Positions 8,475 to 57,621 of a stretch of 64,000 bases of DNA are shown one piece after another. The position numbers and the translations under genes are program-made. Numbering within the stretch: the first letter of the stretch is position 1; every line of letters begins with the position of its first letter. This stretch comes from Pseudomonas argentinensis (GTDB taxonomy: Bacteria > Pseudomonadota > Gammaproteobacteria > Pseudomonadales > Pseudomonadaceae). The notes below the pieces were generated by a model that was given only the letters and a program-made list of their open reading frames with translations, was not told the DNA's origin and made no database searches. The DNA is taken from assembly GCF_001839655.2 (NCBI RefSeq), contig NZ_CP056087.1, positions 4,526,001 through 4,590,000 on the forward strand. Direction: 5' to 3'.

Positions 8475-8860
8475 ACTCGTCACCTCTTGTCGGATCCAGC
8501 GACGGAATGCCAGGACGGCGCTCCGCCACACAGGACCACCGACTCCCGATCAGGAGCGCCGCAAACGGACGAGGGCCGAGGGCCGCCACCTGTCTGCAGG
8601 GTTCGGCGGTCTTTCAAGGCGTGGTCTGCACGGGCCGATCGTCATGCCCGACTCGCCGCAAACCACAGTTCGTTGATACTCCAAAAAATGTGACAGGCAA
8701 ATGATCTTTTCAGTTTTTTTATTTTTATTTGTCGGTTGGACGAATGACCTTGGCAGCGGCGCTAGTCGGGCACTAGAGTCATGAGTCCGGCACCCTTGCC
8801 AGCCGCCCGCTGGCGCTGCCGAATCGGCTAGAATCGCCGCTCCGCCGAAGGAGACGACTC
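8475..8860. other. Divergent promoter region of the PhoH-type gene and yaaA
   Basis: These 386 bases separate two divergently transcribed genes and contain no credible ORF. An AT-rich patch at about 8695-8740 (CAGTTTTTTTATTTTTATTT) stands out from the GC-rich surroundings and probably holds promoter elements. I do not recognise a specific operator. Confidence 0.4.
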
Positions 8861-22816: not shown

Positions 22817-23173
22817 TCAGCCGGCGTCCAGGCAACTGCGCCGGTTGCTGAATGCCTCGCGGCGTATATCACGCACGTCCACCGAAAGACTCTGAACCGC
22901 CGGCAGGCGCTCCAGCAGCGCACGCACGATGGCCATGGACAGCGCCTTCTTCTGCTCGTCGCTGCGACCGGCCAGCAGGTAGAAGATCACATGAACGAAA
23001 TCTTCCTCGCTGCCACCGACCGTGAAGTGCTCGTAGAGGCTTAGCCGCACCTTCACCTCGCCTTCCTTGAACAATCCGCTGCCCATGGCGGCCGCGTGTA
23101 CCCTCGTCACCAATTGGCTACCGTCCACGGTTTGCAGCAGGGAGCGGGAACCTTCGATCAGGCAATGTGGCAT
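22817..23173 (-). CDS. 5-carboxymethyl-2-hydroxymuconate delta-isomerase family protein
   Basis: The 118-residue protein starts MPHCLIEGSRSLLQTV, the CHMI (HpaF/HpcD) N-terminus with the catalytic Pro1 after methionine removal, and contains DFVHVIFYLLAGRSDEQKKALS. CHMI acts in the homoprotocatechuate meta pathway, but no other gene of that pathway is here. It may therefore be a stand-alone tautomerase with another substrate. It converges on gcvT. Confidence 0.9.
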   Translation of the reverse strand: MPHCLIEGSRSLLQTVDGSQLVTRVHAAAMGSGLFKEGEVKVRLSLYEHFTVGGSEEDFVHVIFYLLAGRSDEQKKALSMAIVRALLERLPAVQSLSVDVRDIRREAFSNRRSCLDAG

Positions 23174-23386
23174 GGGGCTTCTCTTGTTTTTGAGTTGTCA
23201 TCCGTTATCGCACAACATTCATCCAGTGGCGAGAGCCCATCGATTCCCTGCCCGCGATACCCTCCAGAAACCCTCTCAAGCGTGAAGCGATAAGCTGAAG
23301 GCCTCTATTTGCAAGGCATTGGCCATAGGCTGCAAGTATCGACAGGGCGTCCTAGAAACTTCAGTTGATCTTTTCATCGGCTTGCG

Positions 23387-23416
23387 TTGACAAGCCGATT
23401 GTGAGCTGTCGATAAT
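23387..23416 (+). promoter_or_regulatory. Sigma-70 promoter of the OprD porin
   Basis: TTGACA at 23387-23392 and GATAAT at 23411-23416 are 18 bases apart. The same -35 and -10 hexamers with the same spacing occur upstream of udh (50829-50858), and in both cases a FadR-type operator begins 7-10 bases after the -10. The shared layout indicates co-regulation. The rest of 23174-23704 is a long leader of about 280 bases with one possible small ORF. Confidence 0.75.
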
Positions 23417-23426
23417 CGCCGCAAGT

Positions 23427-23439
23427 GTTGTATGACAAC
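23427..23439. promoter_or_regulatory. FadR/GntR-type operator at the OprD porin
   Basis: GTTGTATGACAAC contains TTGT-N3-ACAA, fitting the FadR-family pattern TNGTnnnACNA. It lies just downstream of the predicted transcription start, a repressor position. It is the most symmetrical copy of the motif also found at 48854, 49082, 50613, 50866 and 57554 in the hexuronate region. Confidence 0.7.
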
Positions 23440-23470
23440 AAAGCCTTATAAAAACAAAAAAGGTTCCATC

Positions 23471-23575
23471 ATGAAGCCAGTCTTCACGTCACCCGTATAC
23501 CGTCTTCCGGGCACCCGCGCCCGATCCGCCGCATTCATCTCGATACCTGCGCGCCACTTATTCGCCGATGGCTAG
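23471..23575 (+). CDS. Possible 34-residue leader ORF upstream of the porin
   Basis: An ATG at 23471, preceded by AAAAAAGGTT, opens a 34-codon frame starting MKPVFTSPVYRLPG and ending LFADG before TAG. It lies between the operator and the porin within the predicted transcript, so it could be a translated leader. Nothing beyond the Shine-Dalgarno and the position supports it, and it may be a chance frame. Confidence 0.3.
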   Translation: MKPVFTSPVYRLPGTRARSAAFISIPARHLFADG

Positions 23576-23697
23576 GGCCTGAGGCATGTCCTGCGTAATC
23601 GCGCAGGTCTGCGCCCTGTAAAGGGCATTCCATACCGCCCTCACGGCATGCCGATCAGCGATCGACAGAGGACGGGCTGTTCAAAAATCGGGAGCAC

Positions 23698-23705
23698 AAC
23701 AACAA
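23698..23705 (+). promoter_or_regulatory. Possible Hfq/Crc A-rich target at the porin start
   Basis: AACAACAA fits the AAN-repeat pattern bound by Hfq with Crc in Pseudomonas catabolite repression. It sits between the Shine-Dalgarno GGGAG and the ATG. Comparable motifs precede the lactonase, DctP and garD genes. Confidence 0.4.
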
Positions 23706-24973
23706 TGACCGCACGCAAAATCATCTCGCTGGGCCTGATCGGGGCCGGAACCATGGCCCTGGCCGTGCCGTTCGCCGCCCATGCCGAAGGCTTCGTAGAC
23801 GATGCCAAGGTGTCGCTGAACCTGCGCAACTACTACTTCAACCGTAACTACCTCAACGGCACCGACCCGGTCATCAATGGCGAGCGCCAGGGCCAGGCAG
23901 AGGGCTGGACCCAGAGCTTCATTCTCGATGCGCGCTCCGGCTACACCGCAGGCACCGTAGGCTTCGGCATCGACGTGCTGGGCCTGTACTCGGTCAAGCT
24001 GGATGGCAATGCCAACACCAGCAACAGCGGCCTGCTGCCAGAGCACGGCCCGGCGGCCAATCGCAACATTCCCGACGACTTCGGGCGTACCGCCGTGGCC
24101 GCCAAGGCCAAGATCTCGAAGACCGAACTGAAGGTCGGCGAGTGGTTCGCCGTGCTGCCGATCCTGCGTGCCGACGACGGCCGTTCGCTGCCCCAGACCT
24201 TCCAGGGCGCGCAGATCACCTCTGCGGAAATCGACGGCCTGACCCTGTTCGGCGGTCAGTTCTGGAAGAACAGCCAGCGCAACGACGCCAGCCGTGAAGA
24301 CATGTCCTACAGCGGCATTTCCGGTGGCGATTTCAACTTCGGCGGTGGCGAGTTCAAGTTCAACGGCAACAACACCCTAGTCGGCCTGTGGCACGCCCGC
24401 CTGGAAGACATCTACCAGCAGAGCTACCTGCAACTGACCCACAGCCAGCCGGTCGGCGACTGGGTACTGGGCGCCAACCTCGGCTACGTCACCGGCAAGG
24501 ATGAAGGCTCGGCCAAGGCCGGCGACCTGGACAACAAGGTCTACCAGGGCGCCCTGTCCGCCAAGCGTGGCAACAACACCTTCCTGGTGGGCTACCAGCG
24601 CATGGGCGGCGACACCAAGTTCATGCGCGTCGACGGCGCCAGCGGCGGCACCCTGGTCAACGACGGTTTCACCACCAGCTTCGACAGCCCTGAAGAACGT
24701 TCCTGGCAGGTACGCCACGACTACAACTTCGCTGGCCTGGGCGTCCCCGGCCTGGTGTTGATGAACCGCTACATGAGCGGCTCGAACATTCGTGTGGCCG
24801 GTGGCGGCGAAGCCGAGGAATGGGCACGCGAATCCGAGCTGGCCTATACCGTGCAGGACGGCACCTTCAAGAACCTGAGCATCCGCTGGCGCAACTCCAG
24901 CGTCCGCCGCGACGTCGGCCAGGACGCCAGTGAAAACCGCCTGATCTTCAACTACCCGTTGTCGATCCTGTAA
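23705..24973 (+). CDS. OprD family outer-membrane porin
   Basis: The 422-residue precursor starts MTARKIISLGLIGAGTMALA and has a signal peptide ending at about AAHA before EGFVDDAKVSLNLRNYYFNR, the standard OprD N-terminal strand. The sequence ends in ENRLIFNYPLSIL, typical of the family's last beta strand. OprD porins admit amino acids, peptides or organic acids. The operator and promoter it shares with udh suggest uronate or aldarate uptake, but that is inferred. GGGAG and an A-rich AACAACAA (possible Hfq/Crc site) overlap the start. Confidence 0.93.
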   Translation: MTARKIISLGLIGAGTMALAVPFAAHAEGFVDDAKVSLNLRNYYFNRNYLNGTDPVINGERQGQAEGWTQSFILDARSGYTAGTVGFGIDVLGLYSVKLDGNANTSNSGLLPEHGPAANRNIPDDFGRTAVAAKAKISKTELKVGEWFAVLPILRADDGRSLPQTFQGAQITSAEIDGLTLFGGQFWKNSQRNDASREDMSYSGISGGDFNFGGGEFKFNGNNTLVGLWHARLEDIYQQSYLQLTHSQPVGDWVLGANLGYVTGKDEGSAKAGDLDNKVYQGALSAKRGNNTFLVGYQRMGGDTKFMRVDGASGGTLVNDGFTTSFDSPEERSWQVRHDYNFAGLGVPGLVLMNRYMSGSNIRVAGGGEAEEWARESELAYTVQDGTFKNLSIRWRNSSVRRDVGQDASENRLIFNYPLSIL

Positions 24974-43128: not shown

Positions 43129-44685
43129 TCAGGTGACTGGAGCAGGATTGAACAGCACCAAGTCATTGTGCAGGCGATGCTTCTCCGCCCAGGTCTGTTT
43201 CTTGCCACTGGCGACATCCAGATAGAGCTGGAAGATGTGCCAGCCCATCTCATCCAGGGTCATGCGCCCCGAGGTGATCTGCCCGGCATCCACGTCGATC
43301 AGGTCCGGCCAGCGCTCGGCCAGCTGGGTGCGCGTGGCCACCTTGATCACCGGCACCATGGACAGGCCGTAGGGCGTACCGCGCCCGGTGGTGAAGATGT
43401 GCAGGTTCATGCCGGCGGCCAGTTGCAGGGTGCCGCAGATGAAGTCGCTGGCCGGCGTGGCGCAGAACCACAGGCCCTTGCCGCGGATCCGCTCGCCGGG
43501 CGAGACCACCCCGACGATTGGGCTGTTGCCGGACTTGGCGATGGAGCCCATGGCCTTCTCGACGATATTGTTCAAGCCGCCCTTCTTGTTGCCCGGCGTG
43601 GTGTTGGCGCTGCGATCGGCCATGCCCCGCTCCAGGTAGCGGTCGTACCAGTCCATCTCGCGGATCAGCGCATCGGCGACCTCGACGGTCGAGGCGCGCG
43701 GGGTCAGCAGATGGATGCCGTCACGGACCTCGGTGTTCTCGGAGAACATCACGGTGGCGCCGGCCCGCACCAGCAGGTCGGCCGCCACGCCCAGCGCCGG
43801 ATTGGCGGTGATGCCCGAGAAGGCGTCGCTGCCGCCACACTGCATGCCCACCACCAGTTCGCTGGCCGGTACGGTTTCGCGGCGGCGCTGGTCGAGCACC
43901 TTCAGGCGATCCTCGATCATGCCCATGATCTGCTCGATCATGCCGGCGAAGCCGGTGCCCGAATCCTGCAGGCGGAACAGCCATTCTTCCTCGCCCTGGC
44001 CACAGGTCAGAGCATCGCCGTCCATCAGCTGGTTGGCCTGCAACTTCTCGCAGCCCAGGCTGATCACCAGCGCCTGGCCGCCCAGGTTGGGGTTGCGGCT
44101 GATATTGTAGAGGGTGCGGATCGGCACCACCGCGTCCGGCGCATTGATCGCCACGCCGCAGCCGTAGCTGTGCGACAGTGGCACCACGTCGTCGACGTTC
44201 GGGTACTTGGGCAGGATTTCCTTGCGCACGCGCTCGACGCAGTAGTCGAGCACCCCGACCACGCACTGCACCGTGGTGGTCACGCCGAGGATGTTGCGCG
44301 TGCCAACGGTGCCGTCGGCATTGCGGAAGCCTTCGAAGGTATAGCCTTCCAGCGGCTCGGGCGTCGGCGCCTCGATGGTCGCCTTGGGCAGATTGTCCAG
44401 CACCGGCGGCTCCGGCATGCGCAACAGCGCTTCGGTCACCCAGGTACCTGCGGGAATGGGATCGAGGGCGTAGCCGATCACTTCCCCGTAGCGCACCACG
44501 TGGCCGCCTTCGGGAATCGCCACCAGCGACACCTTGTGGCTCTGGGGAATGCCTTCCAGCGCCTCCAGGCCATCGGCGAAACGGCCACCAGCCGCTACCC
44601 CCTGTTCGTTGACCACCACACCGACATTGTCGTCGGCATGCAGGCGGATGTAACGCGGGGAGTCCTGATGTTGAATGAGATCCAT
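43129..44685 (-). CDS. garD: Galactarate dehydratase GarD
   Basis: GarD dehydrates galactarate to 5-dehydro-4-deoxy-D-glucarate, the substrate of KdgD. The 518-residue length and the motifs [50 protein letters not shown] and MEPMAF-equivalent [15 protein letters not shown] match the altronate/galactarate dehydratase family, which uses iron. An A-rich AACAAGAAAAGGA overlaps the ribosome binding site and resembles an Hfq/Crc target. It lies between the transporter and the hydroxyacid dehydrogenase. Confidence 0.96.
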
Positions 44686-44745: not shown

Positions 44746-46096
44746 TCAGGTGACTGGCGAAGGCAAAGCCTGGTCGCGGATCGCCAGACCGTTTTCATCC
44801 TTGAGCACCACGCGCTGAATACGGCCGACGATGAACAGGTAGCTGAACACCGCGACCAGGGCGTTGGCGCCGACGTACACCAGTGCCCACTTGAACGAGC
44901 CGGTGGCGCTGATGATGTAGCCGATGACGATGGGCGTGGTGATCGAGGCGATATTGCCGAAGGTGTTGAACAGGCCGCCGGACAGCCCGGCGATCTGCTT
45001 GGGCGAGGTATCGGACACCACGGCCCAGCCGAGGGCGCCGAGCCCCTTGCCGAAGAAGGCCAGGGTCATGAAACCGACCACCATCCATTCGGCCGACACG
45101 TAGTTGCACAGCACCATGCTGGTCGACAGCATCAGGCCGCAGACGATGGGCAGCTTGCGCGCCAGGGTCAGGCTATGGCCACGACGCAGCAGCCAGTCGG
45201 AGACCACCCCGCCGAGCACACCGCCGACGAACCCCATGATTGCCGGCAGGGAGGCGATGAAGCCGGCCTTGAGGATGGTCATGCCGCGCTCCTGCACCAG
45301 GTACACCGGGAACCAGGTCAGGAAGAAGTAGGTGATGGCGTTGATGCAGTACTGGCCCAGGTACACGCCGACCATCATGCGGTTGGTCAGCAGTTGGGTG
45401 ATGTAGTGCCACTTCGGCCCGCCGCTGCCCTTGGACTGATCCATGTCGACCAGCCCGCCGTTGCTGGCGATGTGTTCGACCTCGGCAGCACTGATGCGCG
45501 GATGTTCCTTGGGGTTGTAGATGGTCTTCATCCAGATGCCGGCAAAGACGATGCCCAGCACGCCCATGACCACGAACACGTGCTCCCAGCCGAAGGCATA
45601 GACGATCCAGCCCATCAGGGGCGCGAACAGCGCGGTGGCGAAGTACTGCGCCGAGTTGAAGATCGCCGACGCGGTGCCGCGCTCTGCCGTCGGGAACCAG
45701 GCCGCGACGATACGGGCGTTACCCGGGAACGACGGTGCTTCGGCGAAGCCGACCATGAAACGCAGCACGAACAGGCTCACCACGGCCCAGGCCACCGGCA
45801 TCATGCCGACGAAGCCCTGCAGCAGGGTGAACAGCGACAGATGAAGATGCCGGCGGCATACCCGCGTTTGGAGCCGAAGCGGTCGAGCAGCCAGCCCCCG
45901 GGATCTGCCCGATCACGTAGGCCCAGCCGAAGGCGGAAAAGATATAGCCGAGGGTTACCGCATCGATGCCCAGGTCCTTCTGCATGCTGGAGCCAGCGAT
46001 GGAAATGGTGGCGCGGTCGGCGTAGTTGATGGTGGTTACCAGAAACAGCATCAGCAGTATCAGGTAACGGACGTGGGTTTTCTTTGTGTCTCCCAT
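44746..46096 (-). pseudogene. MFS glucarate/galactarate-type transporter with two frameshifts
   Basis: The N-terminal 70 residues (MGDTKKTHVRYLILLMLFLV, NYADRATISIAGSSMQKDLG, YIFSAFGWAYVIGQIPG) and the C-terminal 352 residues (FMVGFAEAPSFPGNARIVAAWFPTAERG onward) belong to one GudP/GarP-like permease. Between them two single bases are missing: one C in the C-run at 45895-45899 and one near 45838. Restoring both gives GGWLLDRFGSKRGYAAGIFI and SLFTLLQGFVG and a normal 450-residue protein. Either the gene is dead or these are sequence errors. It heads the operon with garD. Confidence 0.88.
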
Positions 46097-46378: not shown

Positions 46379-46392
46379 TGATTGCGCAATCA
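46379..46392. promoter_or_regulatory. LacI-type operator 1
   Basis: TGATTGCGCAATCA is a perfect 14-bp palindrome with a central CG, the hallmark of LacI-family operators. It lies upstream of the transporter-garD operon and 66 bases (centre to centre) from a second copy. Confidence 0.78.
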
Positions 46393-46442
46393 ACGTGACA
46401 CTGAATACGGCACCACGCAGTTCGCTACACAGCCGACTTTAC

Positions 46443-46460
46443 AATGATTGCGCAATCATT
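46443..46460. promoter_or_regulatory. LacI-type operator 2
   Basis: AATGATTGCGCAATCATT is a perfect 18-bp palindrome containing the same core as operator 1. The 66-base spacing would allow looping by a LacI-type repressor, whose gene ends 51 bases away. The remaining part of 46097-46511 shows no gene and would be a leader of nearly 300 bases for the transporter. Confidence 0.8.
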
Positions 46461-47884: not shown

Positions 47885-48796
47885 TTATTGCGCGCCCTGG
47901 GCGTCGATCAGCGCCGCCAGCTTCTGGTATTCGTCTGGCAGCAGCTCGGTCAGCGGGGCGCGAACCGGGCCGGCGTCGAAACCGGCGATCTTGGCGCCCG
48001 CCTTGACGATGCTCACCGCATAACCGGATTTACGGTTACGGATATCCAGGTACGGCAGAAAGAAGTCGTCGATGATCTTGCCGACGGTGGCGTGATCTTC
48101 ACGGGCAATGGCATGGTAGAAGTCCATCGCGGTTTTCGGGATGAAGTTGAACACCGCCGAGGAATAGACCGGCACGCCCAGGGCCTTGTAGGCAGCAGCG
48201 TAGACTTCAGCGGTCGGCAGGCCGCCCAGGTAGGTCAGGCGCTCGCCCAGACGGCGACGGATCGACACCATCAGCTCGATATCGCCCAGGCCGTCCTTGT
48301 AGCCGATCAGGTTCGGGCAACGCTCGGCCAGTTGCTCCAGCAGTGGCGCGGTCAGGCGGCAGACGTTGCGGTTGTAGACCACCACACCGATCTTCACCGA
48401 TTTGCAGACCTGCTCGACGTGAGCGGCCACGCCCTCCTGGGAGGCTTCGGTCAGGTAGTGCGGCAGCAACAGCAGGCCCTTGGCGCCCAGGCGCTCGGCT
48501 TCCTGTGCGTACTGGATGGCCTGGCGGGTCGAGCCGCCGACGCCGGCGAGAATCGGTACGCTGCCCGCGCAGGTGTCGACGGCGGTCTTGATCACCGACG
48601 AGTACTCGTCAGCGGCCAGGGAGAAGAACTCACCGGTGCCGCCCGCGGCGAACAGTGCCGTGGCGCCGTAAGGGGCCAGCCACTCCAGGCGACGGACATA
48701 ACCGGCCGGGTTGAATTCACCCGCCGCATCGAAGTCGGTCAGCGGGAAGGACAGCAGGCCGGAGGAGAGGACGGTTTTTAGTTCTTGTGGAGTCAT
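47885..48796 (-). CDS. kdgD: 5-dehydro-4-deoxyglucarate dehydratase, copy 1
   Basis: KdgD decarboxylates and dehydrates 5-dehydro-4-deoxy-D-glucarate to 2-oxoglutarate semialdehyde. The 303-residue protein is a class I DHDPS/NAL-family TIM barrel with AGGTGEF (51-57), the tyrosine in VVVYNRN (Tyr141) and the Schiff-base lysine in GYKDG (Lys167). It differs from copy 2 at about 16 of 303 residues. The ATG at 48796 (AAGAAGA upstream) matches copy 2; the frame from 48841 adds 15 unrelated residues. Confidence 0.95.
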
Positions 48797-48853
48797 TCTT
48801 CTTACACCCTTGAATGAGGATATGGAGGCCGTTACCGGCAACTGAAGTCATAC

Positions 48854-48866
48854 GTTATCGTACAAC
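48854..48866. promoter_or_regulatory. FadR-type operator at kdgD copy 1
   Basis: GTTATCGTACAAC, 57 bases upstream of the kdgD start, is an inverted repeat variant of the GTTGTATGACAAC site. Read on the minus strand it contains GTACGATAACGTAT, a 14-base string repeated exactly at the promoter of kdgD copy 2. Confidence 0.7.
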
Positions 48867-49081
48867 TAAATAAATTCCAAGCCCCCGGAGGTATTTCGGC
48901 CCGTATCCGATGTGAGCAGAACAGAATCTGGCACCTAGATAAATTGTGCAAAAACCATCCAAATCGAGGATTTTTATTGCACAAAAAACGGAAACCTTAT
49001 TGGTTAATAATAATTTTAAGCCTTTTTTGGCTCCAGCCATTCGTATTTCAGGTGACATCGGCGTTCCTGTATCGGCCCTCA

Positions 49082-49094
49082 GTCATACGACAAC
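49082..49094. promoter_or_regulatory. Orphan FadR-type operator between the kdgD copies
   Basis: GTCATACGACAAC differs from the udh operator (CTCATACGACAAC) by one base but has no recognisable gene downstream. It is 228 bases from the kdgD copy 1 operator, close to the 253 bases separating the copy 2 and udh operators. It may be left from duplication of the divergent promoter region. The interval 48797-49600 is partly AT-rich, includes an inverted repeat TTGTGCAA/TTGCACAA at 48944-48984, and holds no supported gene. Confidence 0.55.
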
Positions 49095-49244
49095 ATCAAC
49101 CAAAATGGATTTTATAAAAGGGGTGCCCGCTGCAAAAGCATCCTCACCAGCCAGACCATTCACCTGCATCTGCCCCAACCGCTCCCCCTCTGCAGGAGAT
49201 AGAGAGACGGCAGGACAATGTAAGTGTCCAACTAGGGATCCGAG

Positions 49245-49644: not shown

Positions 49645-50556
49645 TTACTGGGCGCCTTGCGCCTTGATCAGTGCGGCCAGCTTCTCGTACTCGTCGGGCA
49701 GCAGATCGGTCAGCGGGGCGCGGACCGGGCCGGCATCGTAGCCGGAGATCTTGGCACCGGCCTTGACGATGCTCACCGCATAACCGGCCTTGCGGTTACG
49801 GATATCCAGGTACGGCAGGAAGAAGTCGTCGATGATCTTGCCAACGGTGGCGTGATCATCCTTGGCGATGGCGTGGTAGAAGTCCATTGCGGTTTTCGGG
49901 ATGAAGTTGAACACCGCCGAGGAATAGACCGGCACGCCCAGGGCCTTGTAGGCAGCAGCGTAGACTTCAGCGGTCGGCAGGCCGCCGAGGTAGCTGAAGC
50001 GATCGCCCAGGCGACGACGGATCGACACCATCAGCTCGATATCACCCAGGCCGTCCTTGTAGCCGATCAGGTTCGGGCAACGCTCGGCCAGTTGCTCGAG
50101 CAGCGGCGCGGTCAGGCGGCAAACGTTGCGGTTGTAGACCACCACACCGATCTTCACCGATTTGCAGACCTGCTCGACGTGGGCGGCGACGCCCTCCTGG
50201 GAGGCCTCGGTCAGGTAATGCGGCAGCAGCAGCAGGCCCTTGGCGCCCAGGCGCTCGGCTTCCTGCGCGTACTGGATGGCCTGGCGGGTGGAGCCACCCA
50301 CGCCAGCGAGAATCGGCACGCTGCCTGCGCAGGTGTCGACTGCAGTCTTGATGATCGAGCAATACTCGTCAGCCGCCAGGGAGAAGAATTCACCGGTACC
50401 GCCAGCGGCGAACAGCGCGGTGGCGCCGTAAGGGGCCAGCCACTCGAGGCGGCGCACGTAGCCTTCAGGATTGAATTCGCCTTGGGCATCGAAATCGGTC
50501 AGCGGGAAGGACAGCAGACCGGAGGAAAGGACGGATTTTAATTCTTGTGGGGTCAT
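49645..50556 (-). CDS. kdgD: 5-dehydro-4-deoxyglucarate dehydratase, copy 2
   Basis: This 303-residue enzyme has the same catalytic residues as copy 1 (AGGTGEF, Tyr141, Lys167), and residues 69-181 contain no substitutions. Differences cluster in the N-terminal 70 residues and in the last 120. Long tracts are also identical at the DNA level, for example about 95 bases around 49890-49985 against 48130-48225. It is divergent from udh and shares a control region with it, which suggests it is the original pathway copy. Confidence 0.95.
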
Positions 50557-50612
50557 TCTTCGAATACCTGTAGCACATGTGGAAAAAGAGCAGCCGCTGG
50601 CTGTAGAGATAC

Positions 50613-50625
50613 GTTATCGTACGAC
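50613..50625. promoter_or_regulatory. FadR-type operator at kdgD copy 2
   Basis: GTTATCGTACGAC, 56 bases upstream of the kdgD start, differs by one base from the site at kdgD copy 1 and occupies the same position. It lies in the 367-base divergent region with udh, which has no other recognisable gene. Confidence 0.7.
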
Positions 50626-50828
50626 AATAACTAAAACCATACCCTTCTCGACCTTTTGCACGTTCCTGCCTAAAAAAGGCGCTATACACAACCGCGCGCT
50701 TCACCAATGACGGTGACTGCGCGGTCATCTTTAGCGCGCCGGGCACCTGCCAACAGAAGGGTGAAACCCTCAGTCAACGGGGCGTCTGGCATACCGGATG
50801 GATAGTCGAGGTTTTTTTTGGCGTCGCG

Positions 50829-50878
50829 TTGACAGCGCAATCGGAGGCTGTTGATAATCCTCTCACTCATACGACAAC
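50829..50878 (+). promoter_or_regulatory. udh promoter with FadR-type operator
   Basis: TTGACA (50829-50834) and GATAAT (50853-50858) are spaced by 18 bases, and the operator CTCATACGACAAC follows at 50866-50878, near the transcription start. The same promoter hexamers, spacing and operator position occur at the OprD porin (23387-23439). Confidence 0.75.
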
Positions 50879-50923
50879 CGATAACAAGCTCTCCATAAAA
50901 ACAAACCAGAGACCGCTTACGCC

Positions 50924-51751
50924 ATGACTACCCCTTCCAATGCGCAACCGCCCTTCCATCGCCTGCTGCTCACTGGCGCGGCAGGCGGATTGGGCAAGGT
51001 GCTGCGCGAGCGCCTGCAGCCACTGACCGAGATTCTGCGTCTTTCCGACATCGCCGAAATGGCGCCGGCCGAAGGCCCGCACATCGAGGTGCAGATCTGC
51101 GATCTGGCCGACAAACAGGCCGTTCATCAGTTGGTCGAAGGCGTCGACGCCATCCTGCACTTTGGCGGGGTCTCGGTGGAGCGTCCGTTCGAGGAAATCC
51201 TCGGCCCGAACATCAGCGGCGTGTTCCATATCTATGAAGCGGCGCGTCGCCATGGCGTCAAACGCGTGATCTTTGCCAGCTCCAACCATGTCATCGGCTT
51301 CCACAAACAGACCGACACCATCGATGCCGACGCCCCGCGTCGCCCCGACGGTTACTACGGTCTGTCCAAGTCCTACGGCGAAGACATGGCCAGCTTCTAC
51401 TTCGATCGCTACGGCATCGAGACGGTCAGCATCCGCATCGGCTCCTCGTTCACCGAACCGCTGAACCGCCGCATGATGAGCACCTGGCTGAGCTATGACG
51501 ACCTGGTGCAACTGATCGAACGCGGCCTCACCACCCCGAACGTCGGCCATACCGTGGTCTACGGCGCCTCGGCGAACAAGACCGTCTGGTGGGACAACAG
51601 CAAGGCCGCCCACCTGGGCTTCCAGCCCAAGGACAGCTCGGAGGTCTTCCGCGACAAGGTCGAGGCCCAGCCGCCGGTGCCGGCAGACGACCCCAATGCG
51701 CTCTATCACGGCGGCGCCTTCACCGCCGCCGGCCCGTTCGGCGACAGCTGA
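50924..51751 (+). CDS. udh: Uronate dehydrogenase
   Basis: Udh oxidises D-galacturonate or D-glucuronate with NAD to the aldarolactone. The 275-residue extended-SDR protein has TGAAGGLG at residues 17-24, ILHFGGVSVERPFE, IFASSNHVIGFH and the catalytic YGLSK (Tyr145, Lys149). Length and motifs match characterised Pseudomonas Udh. The lactonase gene follows after 42 bases and the TRAP transporter after that, so this looks like a five-gene operon. Confidence 0.96.
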   Translation: MTTPSNAQPPFHRLLLTGAAGGLGKVLRERLQPLTEILRLSDIAEMAPAEGPHIEVQICDLADKQAVHQLVEGVDAILHFGGVSVERPFEEILGPNISGVFHIYEAARRHGVKRVIFASSNHVIGFHKQTDTIDADAPRRPDGYYGLSKSYGEDMASFYFDRYGIETVSIRIGSSFTEPLNRRMMSTWLSYDDLVQLIERGLTTPNVGHTVVYGASANKTVWWDNSKAAHLGFQPKDSSEVFRDKVEAQPPVPADDPNALYHGGAFTAAGPFGDS

Positions 51752-51772
51752 AACCGCGCCCTTCCCCCCGAT

Positions 51773-51783
51773 AACAATAACAA
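51773..51783 (+). promoter_or_regulatory. Possible Hfq/Crc A-rich target at the lactonase
   Basis: AACAATAACAA fits the AAN-repeat motif exactly and directly precedes the AGAGG Shine-Dalgarno of the SMP-30 gene. Confidence 0.5.
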
Positions 51784-51793
51784 GAGGTCGGAC

Positions 51794-52687
51794 ATGCCCA
51801 CGCAAGCCGAACTGATTCTCGATGCCCGCAACGCCGTGGGCGAAAGCCCGGTGTGGAGCCCGCGGGATCAGGCCCTGTACTGGGCCGACATCCCCAACAG
51901 GCGGCTGTATCGCTGGAACCTGGCGGATGCCAGCACGCAGAGCTGGGAAGCCGACGAAATGCTCGCCTGCATCGCCCAGCGCGCCGATGGCAGCTGGGTC
52001 GCCGGCATGCAGAGCGGCATCTTCCAGCTGACCGCGGGCAACGATGGCCGCCTGACCGGCGAGCGCCTGGTCGAGGTTGCCCACGCCCGGGAGCAGATGC
52101 GTTTCAACGACGGCCGTTGCGACCGCCAGGGCCGCTTCTGGGCCGGCAGCATGCTGATGGACATGGCCGCAGGTGCCAATGTCGGCGCGCTGTATCGCTA
52201 TGACGGCGCCGGCCAGGCCAGCCTGCCTGTGCTGCTGGACGAGCTGATCGTGCCCAACGGCCTGGGCTTCAGCCCGGACGGCCGCGTCATGTACCTCTCC
52301 GACTCGCATCCCTCGGTCCAGGCCATCTGGGCCTTCGATTACGACATCGACAGCGGCACCCCGCACAACCGCCGCCTGTTCGTCGACATGAACGACTATC
52401 CCGGCCGCCCCGACGGCGCCGCGGTGGATGCCGACGGCTGCTACTGGATCTGTGGCAACGATGCCGGCCTGGTTCACCGCTTCACCCCGGCCGGGCGCCT
52501 CGATCGCTCGCTGGAGGTGCCGGTGAAAAAGCCGACCATGTGCGCCTTCGGCGGCCCCGATCTGGACACCCTGTTCGTCACCTCGATTCGCCCGGGCGGC
52601 AACCTGGACGATCAACCACTGGCCGGCGGTGTATTCGCGCTGCGACCGGGCATCGGTGGCCTTGCAGAAACCCCGTTCGGACACTGA
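51794..52687 (+). CDS. SMP-30/gluconolactonase family lactonase
   Basis: The 297-residue six-bladed propeller has the SMP-30 signatures LGESPVW-like AVGESPVWSPRDQALYWADI, RFNDGRCDRQGRFWAGSM, PNGLGFSPDGRVMYLSDS and GRPDGAAVDADGCYW. The metal-binding glutamate, asparagine and aspartate of the family are present. Between udh and the transporter it should hydrolyse the aldarolactone made by Udh to galactarate or glucarate. It could instead act on a sugar lactone such as gluconolactone. Confidence 0.92.
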   Translation: MPTQAELILDARNAVGESPVWSPRDQALYWADIPNRRLYRWNLADASTQSWEADEMLACIAQRADGSWVAGMQSGIFQLTAGNDGRLTGERLVEVAHAREQMRFNDGRCDRQGRFWAGSMLMDMAAGANVGALYRYDGAGQASLPVLLDELIVPNGLGFSPDGRVMYLSDSHPSVQAIWAFDYDIDSGTPHNRRLFVDMNDYPGRPDGAAVDADGCYWICGNDAGLVHRFTPAGRLDRSLEVPVKKPTMCAFGGPDLDTLFVTSIRPGGNLDDQPLAGGVFALRPGIGGLAETPFGH

Positions 52688-52747
52688 TACCAACCCTGGC
52701 CCCGGCGACTCGCGGACGCCAGACGCTACACACTGCTGCAAACCCAC

Positions 52748-52757
52748 AACAACAAAA
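52748..52757 (+). promoter_or_regulatory. Possible Hfq/Crc A-rich target at dctP
   Basis: AACAACAAAA lies immediately before the CGGAG Shine-Dalgarno of the TRAP binding-protein gene and fits the catabolite-repression motif. Confidence 0.5.
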
Positions 52758-52768
52758 CGGAGCTTCAC

Positions 52769-53743
52769 ATGAACTTCAAGCGCAAGTTGCTCATCGCCGC
52801 ACTCCCGCTGGCATTCGGCTTGTCCAGCCTGGCACAGGCCGACGTCACCCTGAAGATCGCTGAAATCCACCCGGCCGGTTACCCGACCGTGGTGGCCATG
52901 GAAAACCTCGGCAAGAAACTCGATACCGCCACCAGCGGCGAGATCAAGTCGCGCATGTTCGCCGGTGGCGTACTGGGCTCCGAGAAGGAAGTGATCGAAC
53001 AGACCCAGATCGGCGCCGTGCAGCTGACCCGCGTCAGCCTGGGCTCGGTCGGTTCGGTAGTGCCGGCCACCAACGTCTTCAATATGCCGTTCGTGTTCCG
53101 CGACATCGACCACATGCGCAAGGTGGTGGACGGTGAAATCGGTCAGGAAATCCTCGACGCCATCACCAACTCCGACTTCAACATGGTCGGTCTGGCGTGG
53201 ATGGAAGCCGGCAGCCGCAGCCTCTACACCAAGAAGCCGGTGCGCAAGATCGAAGACCTCAAGGGCATGAAGATCCGCGTGATCGGCAACCCGCTGTTCA
53301 TCGACACCCTCAACGCCATGGGCGGCAACGGCATCGCCATGGACACCGGTGAAATCTTCAGCGCCCTGCAGAGCGGCGTGATCGACGGTGCCGAGAACAA
53401 CTCGCCGACCCTGCTCGAGCACAACCACTTCCGCGAAGCCAAGTACTACACCCAGACGCACCACCTGATCCTGCCCGAGCCGCTGCTGATGTCCAAGACC
53501 ACCTGGGAAAAGCTGACCCCCGAGCAGCAGACCCTAGTCAAGAAACTGGCCAAGGAAGCCCAGCTGGAAGAGCGTGATCTGTGGGTCGCCAAGGAAAACG
53601 CCTCCAACGAGAAGCTCAAGGCCGAAGGCGTCGAATTCATCGAAATCGACACCAAGCCGTTCTACGACGCGACCGCTCCGGTACGTGAGAAGTACGGCGC
53701 CCAATACGCCGACCTGATCAAGCGCATCGAAGCCGTCAAGTAA
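52769..53743 (+). CDS. TRAP transporter substrate-binding protein (DctP)
   Basis: The 324-residue precursor has a signal peptide MNFKRKLLIAALPLAFGLSS cleaved near AQA, then the DctP fold starting DVTLKIAEIHPAGYP. The block IRVIGNPLFIDTLNAMGGNG carries the conserved arginine that binds the substrate carboxylate, followed by GVIDGAENNSPTLLEHNHF. It delivers a carboxylated substrate, most likely galacturonate or glucuronate here, to the DctQM permease encoded next. Confidence 0.95.
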   Translation: MNFKRKLLIAALPLAFGLSSLAQADVTLKIAEIHPAGYPTVVAMENLGKKLDTATSGEIKSRMFAGGVLGSEKEVIEQTQIGAVQLTRVSLGSVGSVVPATNVFNMPFVFRDIDHMRKVVDGEIGQEILDAITNSDFNMVGLAWMEAGSRSLYTKKPVRKIEDLKGMKIRVIGNPLFIDTLNAMGGNGIAMDTGEIFSALQSGVIDGAENNSPTLLEHNHFREAKYYTQTHHLILPEPLLMSKTTWEKLTPEQQTLVKKLAKEAQLEERDLWVAKENASNEKLKAEGVEFIEIDTKPFYDATAPVREKYGAQYADLIKRIEAVK

Positions 53744-53805
53744 CCCCCTCGCGCAAGCGTACGGAGCCGGCGTTCTGCCGGCTCCACACCTTCCGGTGAA
53801 GTCAC

Positions 53806-54333
53806 ATGAAAAATCTGGTTCTAGGCGTCAATGACGCCATCTATCGTGCCTGCATCATCGTCACCAGCCTGGCGATCGTGATCATGGCCACGATCATCCC
53901 CTGGGGCGTCTTCAGCCGTTACGCGCTGGGGCAAGGATTGGGCTGGCCCGAGCCCATCTCCGTGATGCTGATGGTGGTGTTCACCTTTATCGGCGCGGCT
54001 GCCAGCTACCGTGCCGGGGCTCACATGGCCGTAACCTCACTGACCGATCGCCTGCCGACCGTCGCGCAGCCGCTGATCACTCTCTTCGTGCGCCTGGCCA
54101 TGGGGGCCATTGCACTGTTCATGCTGATCTGGGGCTACAAGCTGTGTGTGGCCACCTGGAACCAGTTCCTCAGCACCCTGCCAAGCGTGCGCGTTGGCAT
54201 CAGCTACATGCCGATTCCCGTGGGCGGCTTCATCACCCTGCTGTTCGTGATCGAGCAACTGCTCTACGGCGACCAGCATAAACGTCGCGTCGTCGATTTC
54301 GAAGCGGTCGAAGATTCCAAGGAGGCCGTGTAA
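53806..54333 (+). CDS. TRAP transporter small permease (DctQ)
   Basis: The 175-residue protein has four membrane helices and typical DctQ segments: VFSRYALGQGLGWPEPISVM and GAAASYRAGAHMAVT. It pairs with the large permease to form the membrane unit. Its TAA stop overlaps the start of the next gene (TAATG), indicating translational coupling. Confidence 0.94.
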   Translation: MKNLVLGVNDAIYRACIIVTSLAIVIMATIIPWGVFSRYALGQGLGWPEPISVMLMVVFTFIGAAASYRAGAHMAVTSLTDRLPTVAQPLITLFVRLAMGAIALFMLIWGYKLCVATWNQFLSTLPSVRVGISYMPIPVGGFITLLFVIEQLLYGDQHKRRVVDFEAVEDSKEAV

Positions 54334-55613
54334 TGGACGCCGCCATTCTCGTGGGCAGCTTCATCGTCCTCATCCTGCTGCGCGTGCCTGTCGCCTATGC
54401 GCTCGGCATGTCCGCCCTGATCGGCGCCTGGTGGATCGACATTCCGCTGCACGCGATCATGATCCAGATCGCCGGTGGGGTGAACAAGTTCTCCCTGTTG
54501 GCCATTCCGTTCTTCGTGCTGGCCGGTGCGATCATGGCCGAAGGTGGCATGGCACGTCGTCTGGTGGCCTTCGCCGGCGTACTGGTCGGCTTCGTGCGCG
54601 GCGGCCTGTCGCTGGTCAACATCACCGCCTCGACCTTCTTTGGCGCGATCTCCGGATCCTCCCTGGCCGATACCGCCTCGGTGGGCTCGGTGCTGATCCC
54701 GGAAATGGAGAAGAAGGGCTACCCCCGTGAGTTCGCCACCGCCGTGACCGTTTCCGGCTCGGTGCAGGCGCTGCTCACCCCGCCCAGCCACAACTCGGTG
54801 ATCTACTCCCTGGCCGCTGGCGGCACGGTGTCCATCGCCGCGCTGTTCATGGCCGGTATCGGCCCGGGCCTGCTGATGAGCGCCACCATGGCCGCGCTGT
54901 GCCTGTGGTTCGCCAAGAAACGCAACTACCCGAAAGGCGAAGTGATCCCGCTGCGCCAGGCCATCAAGATCTGCGTTGAAGCCCTGTGGGGCCTGATGAC
55001 CATGATCATCATCCTCGGCGGCATCCTCTCCGGCGTATTCACCGCCACCGAGTCGGCGGCCGTGGCGGTGATCTGGGCGTTCTTCGTGACCATGTTCATC
55101 TACCGCGACTACAAGTGGCGTGAACTGCCGAAGATGCTGCACCGTACCGTGCGCACCTTGTCGATCGTGATGATCCTCATCGCCTTCGCCGCCTCCTTCG
55201 GCTACATCATGACCCTGATGCAGATTCCATCGAAGATCACCACGGCGTTCCTGGCAATCTCCGACAATCGCTACGTGATTCTGATGTGCGTCAACTTCAT
55301 GCTGCTGGCCCTCGGCACGCTCATGGACATGGCGCCGCTGATCCTGATCCTGACCCCGATCCTGCTGCCGGTGGTGACCTCCTTCGGTGTCGACCCGGTA
55401 CACTTTGGCATGATCATGCTGGTCAACCTGGGCATCGGCCTGATCACCCCGCCAGTAGGCGCGGTGCTGTTCGTCGGCGCGGCCATCGGCAAGGTGACCA
55501 TCGAGAACACCGTCAAGGCACTGCTGCCCTTCTACGCGGCACTGTTCGCCGTGCTGATGCTGGTCACCTACGTGCCGGCTATCTCGCTGTGGCTGCCTAG
55601 CGTCGTACTCTGA
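54333..55613 (+). CDS. TRAP transporter large permease (DctM)
   Basis: The 426-residue protein has about 12 membrane helices with DctM signatures: FSLLAIPFFVLAGAIMAEGG, SAISGSS-like FGAISGSSLADTASVGSVLI and GLITPPVGAVLFV. It uses an ion gradient to drive high-affinity uptake with DctP. It is the last gene of the udh-lactonase-dctPQM operon, and a strong terminator follows. Confidence 0.96.
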   Translation: MDAAILVGSFIVLILLRVPVAYALGMSALIGAWWIDIPLHAIMIQIAGGVNKFSLLAIPFFVLAGAIMAEGGMARRLVAFAGVLVGFVRGGLSLVNITASTFFGAISGSSLADTASVGSVLIPEMEKKGYPREFATAVTVSGSVQALLTPPSHNSVIYSLAAGGTVSIAALFMAGIGPGLLMSATMAALCLWFAKKRNYPKGEVIPLRQAIKICVEALWGLMTMIIILGGILSGVFTATESAAVAVIWAFFVTMFIYRDYKWRELPKMLHRTVRTLSIVMILIAFAASFGYIMTLMQIPSKITTAFLAISDNRYVILMCVNFMLLALGTLMDMAPLILILTPILLPVVTSFGVDPVHFGMIMLVNLGIGLITPPVGAVLFVGAAIGKVTIENTVKALLPFYAALFAVLMLVTYVPAISLWLPSVVL

Positions 55614-56751: not shown

Positions 56752-57507
56752 TCAGGCCTGCTTGGCCGCCACCTCGGCGGACTCGTGGGCCTGACGCAGG
56801 CGCTCGCGGCTGTTGGTCAGGTGCAGGCGCATGGCGGCACGCGCCGCATCGGAGTCCTGGCGAGCGATGGCCTCGAAGATCTGCTCATGCTCACGCTCCA
56901 GGCGCGCCATGTAGTGGGCATGGTCGTCATGGGCGATACGCGCCGAATTGAGCCGGGTGCGCGGGATGATACTGGTGCCCAGGTGGCTCATGATGTCGGT
57001 GAAGTAGCGGTTGCCCGTGGCATGGGCGATCTGCAGATGGAACTGGAAATCCGACGACACCGCATCGCTTTCGTGGGCGGCGCCCTCGTTCAGCGCATCC
57101 AGCGCCTGGCGCATGGACGCCAGTTGCTCGGGGGTGCGGCGCTGGGCAGCCAGACCGGCCGACTCCACTTCCAGGCTGATACGCAGCTCGAGCACGGCCA
57201 GCACTTCACGCAGGGTGACGATGGTCGCCGGGTCGATGCGGAAACCGCCGGGATTGGGTGTATCCAGCACGAAGGTGCCGATGCCGTGGCGGGTTTCCAC
57301 CAGACCGGACGCCTGCAGCCGTGACAACGCCTCACGCACCACGGTGCGGCTGACACCCTGCTCTTCCATGATCGCCGACTCGGTCGGCAACTTGTCACCA
57401 CGCTTGATCACCCCGTCGCGAATGCGTTGGGACAACTCCGCGACCAGTTCCTGTGCCAGGCTGCGATGCTTGCGGCGCGCGCGTGGCTGCGTGTTCTGAG
57501 TTTCCAT
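56752..57507 (-). CDS. FadR-type GntR regulator of hexuronate/aldarate genes (GguR-like)
   Basis: The 251-residue protein has a GntR winged helix (DKLPTESAIMEEQGVSRTVV, REALSRLQASGLVETRHGIG) and an FCD domain (VLAVLELRISLEVESAGLAA, SDFQFHLQIAHATGNRYFTD). It probably binds the TTGTnnnACAA-like sites in this region, including one in front of its own gene. Its ligand is likely an aldarate or pathway intermediate. The ATG at 57507 is chosen; no strong Shine-Dalgarno is seen. Confidence 0.88.
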   Translation of the reverse strand: METQNTQPRARRKHRSLAQELVAELSQRIRDGVIKRGDKLPTESAIMEEQGVSRTVVREALSRLQASGLVETRHGIGTFVLDTPNPGGFRIDPATIVTLREVLAVLELRISLEVESAGLAAQRRTPEQLASMRQALDALNEGAAHESDAVSSDFQFHLQIAHATGNRYFTDIMSHLGTSIIPRTRLNSARIAHDDHAHYMARLEREHEQIFEAIARQDSDAARAAMRLHLTNSRERLRQAHESAEVAAKQA

Positions 57508-57553: not shown

Positions 57554-57566
57554 AGTTGTATGATGA
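57554..57566. promoter_or_regulatory. FadR-type operator between the regulator and the mutarotase
   Basis: GTTGTATGATGAC has a perfect left half (GTTGTATGA) and a degenerate right half. It lies 47 bases upstream of the regulator start and 56 bases before the epimerase-like gene, so it could control both directions. Confidence 0.55.
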
Positions 57567-57621
57567 CACGTTCTTCGTTTATCTCCGCCTAACGGCTGGA
57601 TAACTGCACAGGTACTGCCCT

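Follow-up and report, generated by a model that had tools for sequence, protein, structure and literature searches.

Many Gram-negative bacteria, including Pseudomonas aeruginosa, are reported to lack large-channel porins (PMC3260308), so that a carbon source may need a channel of its own. The question raised by the locus described here is whether an OprD-family porin gene of Pseudomonas argentinensis specifies such a channel for sugar acids, i.e. whether it belongs to the hexuronate regulon encoded some 25 kb away, as was proposed in an initial annotation made from the DNA alone. The window, by which we mean the whole stretch of 64,000 nucleotides analysed, corresponds to 4526001-4590000 in a 5.08-Mb genome that consists of one contig; its features are collected in Table 1. 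The reading that we favour, with a probability of roughly 0.86, is that the porin gene belongs to the predicted regulon of a FadR-type (GntR/FCD) repressor, whose gene lies at 56752-57507, and that the porin admits sugar acids.

Table 1. Features of the window discussed in the text, in window coordinates; bit scores of operators are those of the 15-bp matrix.
Feature	Position	Strand	Comment
CHMI-family tautomerase, 118 aa, Pro next to Met1	22817..23173	-	PF02962
Operator (predicted) of the divergent CHMI-family gene	23203..23217	-	18.3 bits
Porin promoter	23387..23416	+	TTGACA 23387-23392, 18-base spacer, GATAAT 23411-23416
Porin operator (predicted) TGTTGTATGACAACA	23426..23440	+	23.9 bits; overlaps expected transcription start
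Leader ORF, 34 codons, in the porin 5' leader	23471..23575	+	Placement kept in 22/22 long leaders
OprD-family (OccK-type) porin, 422 aa	23705..24973	+	PF03573, 461 bits
garD, galactarate dehydratase	43129..44685	-	TIGR03248, 898 bits
kdgD1, 5-dehydro-4-deoxyglucarate dehydratase	47885..48796	-	TIGR03249 above cut-off (scan began at upstream start codon)
Operator (predicted) upstream of kdgD1	48853..48867	-	23.7 bits
Extra operator (predicted), kdgD1/kdgD2 spacer	49081..49095	+	17.9 bits
kdgD2, 5-dehydro-4-deoxyglucarate dehydratase	49645..50556	-	TIGR03249 above cut-off
Operator (predicted) upstream of kdgD2	50612..50626	-	19.8 bits
udh promoter, TTGACA-N18-GATAAT	50829..50858	+	Read in sequence
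udh operator (predicted) ACTCATACGACAACC	50865..50879	+	11.4 bits
udh-lactonase-TRAP row	50924..55613	+	udh 50924-51751, lactonase-type 51794-52687, TRAP P, Q, M 52769-55613
FadR-type regulator, 251 aa, GntR + FCD domains	56752..57507	-	PF00392, PF07729
Operator (predicted) upstream of the FadR-type gene	57554..57568	+	18.7 bits; autoregulation reading

The porin promoter, the udh promoter and the operator matrix

Positions 23387-23439 read TTGACAAGCCGATTGTGAGCTGTCGATAATCGCCGCAAGTGTTGTATGACAAC before the porin and positions 50829-50878 read TTGACAGCGCAATCGGAGGCTGTTGATAATCCTCTCACTCATACGACAAC before udh; in the former, TTGACA-N18-GATAAT is followed by GTTGTATGACAAC. The likeness for which the porin was singled out can be read directly: TTGACA and GATAAT are present in both promoters, the spacer is 18 bases long in both, and the distance from GATAAT to the operator core is 10 bases at the porin and 7 at udh, all as originally described. 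From the -35 through the -10 hexamer 21/30 bases are identical, and a search of both strands of the 64-kb window for TTGACA-N16-19-[TG]ATAAT finds no match other than these two promoters. The porin site TTGTATGACAA (23428-23438) fits TnGTnnnACnA, which we take to be the operator form of FadR-type GntR regulators, and the consensus among relatives is TTGTACGACRA; it is a candidate operator, whose binder is assigned on sequence grounds.

Taken alone, the operator pattern is weak evidence, with GTTGTAYGACRAC occurring once in the 5.08-Mb genome and the reversed pattern three times. The palindrome GTTGTNNNACAAC, considered as evidence in its own right, has two genome places without a mismatch among the matches listed; because with one mismatch allowed it is rarer than its reversed control, the argument from the palindrome alone was dropped for one from conservation. 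Sites were scored with a 15-bp matrix trained on the 54 udh-adjacent porin promoters of other genomes (15 distinct sites), with nothing taken from the window or from the window porin clade, the training sites being chosen by the consensus seen in an earlier matrix. The earlier matrix (18 distinct training sites) was replaced because at least four of its sites were mispicked ties; it too had placed the porin first, with a chance-looking position, 39823, in fifth place above the FadR-type gene site.

With the present matrix the six top scores in the window fall, in descending order, at the porin, kdgD1, kdgD2, the FadR-type gene, the CHMI-family gene and the kdgD1/kdgD2 spacer (Table 1), the seventh position reaching 14.2 bits, so that the recurrence of the motif at both kdgD genes and at the FadR-type gene, first noted by inspection, holds. 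Dinucleotide shuffling of the window never produced a score of 23.7 bits (maximum 18.8 in 200 shuffles); positions of at least ~17.9 bits number six in the window versus a mean of 0.015 per shuffle, and 3/200 shuffles contained any. The udh operator is a weaker variant, outscored by some chance-looking window positions. At that place GTCATACGACAAC precedes udh in all five relatives examined (G028, G041, G064, G098 and G008), and sites stand before the FadR-type gene at the matching place in G028, G041, G064 and G008. It is true that the reversed control occurs in the genome at least as often as the 13-mer pattern, as would be expected were the promoter likeness a chance meeting of a consensus promoter with a short AT-rich palindrome; however, the site keeps its position in dozens of genomes (see below), is absent at other porins and has a score that 0/200 shuffles attain, and the chance reading, which we consider highly improbable, is largely refuted.

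Some gene assignments in the window need qualification. The names udh and lactonase are provisional and follow synteny, and the NCBIfam search gave no fitting equivalog model for either; TRAP P and M scored above the NCBIfam cut-offs and Q was recognised weakly. Though a pathway gene, garD has no matrix match above 11.9 bits inside it or just before it. An MFS sugar-acid transporter gene (44746-46096) is apparently split into overlapping frames (44746-45804 and 45719-46096), which appears to be a frameshift or sequencing error. Identical palindromes, TGATTGCGCAATCA, occur at 46379 and 46445 (46379-46458), between the MFS gene and a LacI-type regulator gene; the pair suggests a separate LacI-type regulon for MFS/garD.

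Conservation of the operator among porin promoters

We scored 90 of at least 150 places at which porin loci were found (the first 79, ten lower ones selected for lying beside udh and one lower one not beside it), counting as beside udh those within 1 kb of it, as judged against 67 of the listed udh places. Porins beside udh made up 54/90, in 54 different genomes, always upstream and on the same strand (54/54); put differently, 82 sampled genomes have a udh match, and in 54 of them udh is directly preceded by an OccK-type porin. In front of 54/54 of these porins stands GTTGTACGACRAC or a variant differing by one base, the same promoters having trained the matrix. Among the 36 porins not beside udh, ten have a site of at least 21.1 bits and the other 26 score at most 13.8 bits. 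The ten are the window porin, five others of its clade, and porins of G028, G041, G042 and G082; those of G028, G041 and G042 lie 6-20 kb from udh, and in G082, where udh has no match above the cut-off, garD is 6 kb away. By comparison, ten other OprD-family loci of the window's own genome (one of them a partial match; a twelfth, partial locus was left out) score at most 7.1 bits upstream of the domain match.

The placement of the operator is as regular as its occurrence. In 64/64 site-bearing porin promoters the best-fitting -35/-10 pair, sought with spacers of 16-19 and 1-4 mismatches in all and without a shuffled control, has TTGACA or TTGACT and a spacer of 17 or 18, and the operator begins 7-11 nt past the end of the -10 hexamer. 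At this distance the operator would lie over the transcription start, as expected for the site of a repressor.

Named genomes were also scanned for close porin relatives, giving 39 loci, at least four of which fall on contigs already sampled as G001, G008 and G063, so that they are not fully independent. A site is present at 22/39, 21 with at least 21.3 bits and one a variant of 17.4 bits; 21 of the 22 adjoin gcvT and/or a CHMI-family gene, as in the window, and one adjoins udh. The 17 siteless loci score at most 6.5 bits, and among their neighbours none exceeds 45% identity to any of the other window proteins compared. The operator is, then, conserved before related porins in a uronate or gcvT/CHMI context and absent before other porins. 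Of the named records, Pseudomonas argentinensis and a further Pseudomonas sp. have porins 99% identical to that of the window, and P. straminea has one at 92% identity. Six paralogs of the window clade (L034, L035, L075, L076, L077 and L079), ~75-80% identical and located elsewhere, lack the operator; these are recent paralogs, presumably with another cargo, and because of them similarity alone does not fix the substrate.

Pseudomonas sp. R5(2019) links the window clade to udh directly. Its porin (L239), which groups inside the window porin clade with support of 100/100, lies on the strand of udh, ~75 bp ahead of it; lactonase and then a TRAP receptor follow udh, a kdgD gene is 5 kb upstream, and two FadR-type proteins encoded nearby are 51-54% identical to that of the window. 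The window clade is set off by a long branch from the udh-adjacent porins of most genomes, and in the window lineage the porin is ~26 kb from udh and shares the operator. The R5(2019) arrangement favours relocation out of the udh row with the operator kept over separate recruitment. Together with the matrix built from other genomes, the 64/64 promoter placement, the ten siteless OprD-family loci and the co-occurrence of motif and regulator described below, it upholds the original proposal that the porin belongs to the hexuronate regulon, and from these sequence comparisons its membership of a sugar-acid regulon appears close to settled.

The leaders between operator and porin, with length measured up to the first aligned porin residue, fall into two classes among the 64: short (46-115 nt, n=42) and long (229-337 nt, n=22). 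All 22 long leaders hold an ORF of at least 24 codons that starts 23-41 nt past the operator, versus 2.4 on average among shuffled leaders (maximum 9/22) and 0 or 1 at other offsets. Selection on the leader peptide was considered and rejected, amino-acid differences exceeding silent codon differences in 6/6 pairs: the presence and place of the leader ORF are kept and its peptide is not conserved. One short leader examined closely (L038) has a GTG in the porin frame at about the distance of the leader ORF. A search for RNA elements in 23150-23760 gave no Rfam match up to E 0.1. A-rich stretches were seen by eye before the leader ORF (TAAAAACAAAAAAGG, within 23440-23480) and at the porin start (ACAACAACAATG, 23690-23707), with a similar one before udh; they resemble Crc/Hfq catabolite-repression motifs.

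The FadR-type regulator, its paralog and the CHMI-family tautomerase

The predicted regulator has a GntR helix-turn-helix and an FCD domain, i.e. the make-up of a FadR-type protein, and its best NCBIfam models (NanR, LldR, ExuR and UxuR) all score below cut-off. At a threshold of E 1e-60 or better, which also admits paralogs, it is matched in 100/119 genomes. Exact GTTGTAYGACRAC is present in 86/100 genomes with the regulator and absent from the other 14, versus 3/19 of those without it (Fisher p 3.5e-9, with ancestry ignored); of the seven motif matches in the three regulator-less genomes, five are inside long ORFs and two are ambiguous. The reversed control pattern occurs in 99/100 and 19/19 genomes, respectively.

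A second FadR-type protein, encoded at G000:C1 ~1256954-1257700 in the window's genome, is 58% identical to the window regulator (tblastn), and the two have near-identical recognition-helix stretches with SRTVVR(E/D)ALSRLQ in common. It lies in a second sugar-acid cluster (5955-16700 of L152, G000:C1:1241001-1260000) with a KdgM porin confirmed by Pfam, an MR/MLE enzyme and a peptide-type ABC transporter. Sites of 17.1 and 17.0 bits stand before the MR/MLE, ABC transporter and KdgM genes; the L152 stretch has no detectable udh or lactonase relative, unlike several related genomes.

These features, with the common helix and further FadR-type paralogs in G083, G111 and G071 that have the motif before their own genes, are what would be expected if the paralog controlled the porin, either mainly or jointly, with the channel answering to oligogalacturonide breakdown instead of to the udh regulator of the window. 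We regard that as unlikely, since the operator occurs at the promoter of the window regulator itself, whose gene lies inside the udh cluster, whereas there is no match of 11 bits or more between the start of the paralog and the end of the stretch read, and G081, with an operator-bearing udh-adjacent porin, has a single regulator match at E 1e-60. The initial annotation's choice of the FadR-type protein near udh as regulator needs one qualification: the paralog elsewhere could also be the regulator.

Beyond the window, where members were sought in selected stretches of the genome, a divergent pair of sites separates a TctC/TctA transporter operon from an MFS + FAD-oxidase gene pair, at 8645 and 8793 of L151 (G000:C1:690001-709000), i.e. 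at G000:C1:698645 (16.0 bits) and 698793 (22.3 bits). The operon and the gene pair are predicted to be further regulon members, and so is the KdgM cluster near G000:C1:1246.9k. A site at G000:C1:2342178 (GTTGTCGCACAAC) was left out of the member count.

From the sites, their conservation, their specificity for certain porins and the synteny, we infer a simple scheme in which binding, repression, inducer and substrate are predicted steps. In the absence of inducer, the porin would be shut off by repressor bound to GTTGTATGACAAC, which spans ~+3 to +15 in a strong sigma-70 promoter, and the repressor would act likewise on its own gene, on udh and on both kdgD genes. Its release would be brought about by galacturonate, glucuronate or a derived aldarate; channel, TRAP transporter and oxidative enzymes would then be produced in concert, and the channel, being of the OccK type, could admit cyclic sugar acids present at low concentration.

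The operator of the CHMI-family gene, which is divergent from the porin, starts 30 bp upstream of the gene start. G008 has a 53% identical CHMI relative with a site of 15.7 bits 44 bp before its start and no porin relative in the 19 kb examined; G012 and G082 have the second site, and the stretches examined there showed no CHMI gene. CHMI relatives at 44-48% identity lie, in 10/11 cases, within ~13 kb of udh and FadR-type genes on the same contig. Five such clusters were read (G083, G111, G009, G071 and G101), their ABC, MR/MLE-like and KdgM-like genes being recognised by likeness of the first residues to family-searched genes, and GH28, a pectin-type hydrolase, was assigned in one, that of G083. 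None of these 11 relatives has an operator-like site above 6.3 bits in the 400 bp before the gene, and no link to udh or FadR-type genes was seen, in the coordinates examined, for seven weaker relatives, of which one contains a stop codon. A literature search found no paper on hydroxymuconate isomerase (tautomerase family) that mentions galacturonate. We tentatively suggest, as something with rather less than an even chance of being correct, that the same operator drives the CHMI-family tautomerase as a missing enzyme of uronate breakdown, one that would open or isomerise an unsaturated or lactone intermediate, and that the leader ORF is a second control on channel synthesis. The shared operator in any event brings a tautomerase family into the uronate question, and the operator at this gene and the fixed-place leader ORF look to be the newer side findings of this work.

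Cargo of the channel and relation to known systems

The porin is a full PF03573 barrel (profile 1-394 of 394) of the OprD/Occ family, with an N terminus that is signal-like as read by eye. Of 386 aligned residues, 234 are identical to the BenF-like structure 3jty and 225 to PDB 4fms; the nearest solved relatives include 3szd/4fms (482 bits) and OpdK (364 bits), versus 210-214 bits for Porin D. We take 3szd and 4fms to be OccK2 (OpdF) of P. aeruginosa, and on these scores the window porin is predicted to belong to the OccK rather than the OccD subfamily. It shares the OprD/Occ family with OccK2 and stands in a separate clade. The description of the porin as uncharacterised is correct for the protein itself; the OccK family, by contrast, has already been characterised.

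OccK2 is reported to have the highest glucuronate transport among the channels tested, and in competition tests with labelled glucuronate as substrate benzoate and pyroglutamate also competed, whereas gluconate, tartrate and adipate did not (PMC3260308). Galacturonate, glucarate and galactarate are absent from the text of that paper. Because of this competition pattern, cyclic hexuronates are favoured over open-chain aldarates as cargo. Were the porin to be in the regulon and yet to carry mainly another, benzoate-like cyclic carboxylate, with sugar acids secondary, then the BenF-like name of its closest solved structure, the passage of benzoate and pyroglutamate through OccK channels (PMC3260308) and the existence of near paralogs without the site would all be accounted for. 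We judge this to be quite unlikely given that the operator is common to 54/54 udh-adjacent relatives and that OccK2, with 225/386 residues identical, is the best glucuronate channel of those tested (PMC3260308). Our preferred reading, that the channel is likely an entry route for galacturonate/glucuronate-type sugar acids, agrees with what was first proposed and is well supported by analogy, via OccK-type kinship and the glucuronate transport of OccK2.

The literature searched, which left most subscription papers outside it, contained no published tie of this porin to uronates. An operator conserved across a genus allows cargo to be assigned to channels at little cost, and a few experiments could test the uptake step of pectin-derived acids. 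Porins of this kind may already be listed in a 2018 J. Bacteriol. paper on hexuronate regulons in proteobacteria. We presume the Halomonas transporter UxuPQM to be of the TRAP type.

In P. putida (PP_1171, PP_1170), the lactonase has an important role on both glucuronate and galacturonate, as does the dehydrogenase on glucuronate (PMC9007349). Both genes of this udh-lactonase cluster have counterparts in the window; the available passages of that report name no porin of the cluster, and the pathway tool GapMind leaves outer-membrane porins out (PMC9007349). The closest parallel is with GguR, a GntR-family regulator of galactarate/glucarate and hexuronate genes in Halomonas (PMC5507952), and because a GntR-family regulon over udh and aldarate genes was thereby already described, the novelty of the present regulon is modest. 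A point of difference is the porin, none being named for Halomonas in the available passages (PMC5507952). As to likeness, both systems have a GntR-family regulator; the GguR regulon has Udh and the hexuronate transporter UxuPQM in one operon and includes a TctABC transporter (PMC5507952), and the window's genome has a TctC/TctA operon with sites. With sites at kdgD, udh, the regulator gene and TctC/TctA, and with regulator and motif co-occurring among genomes, the regulon predicted here resembles that of GguR in its composition.
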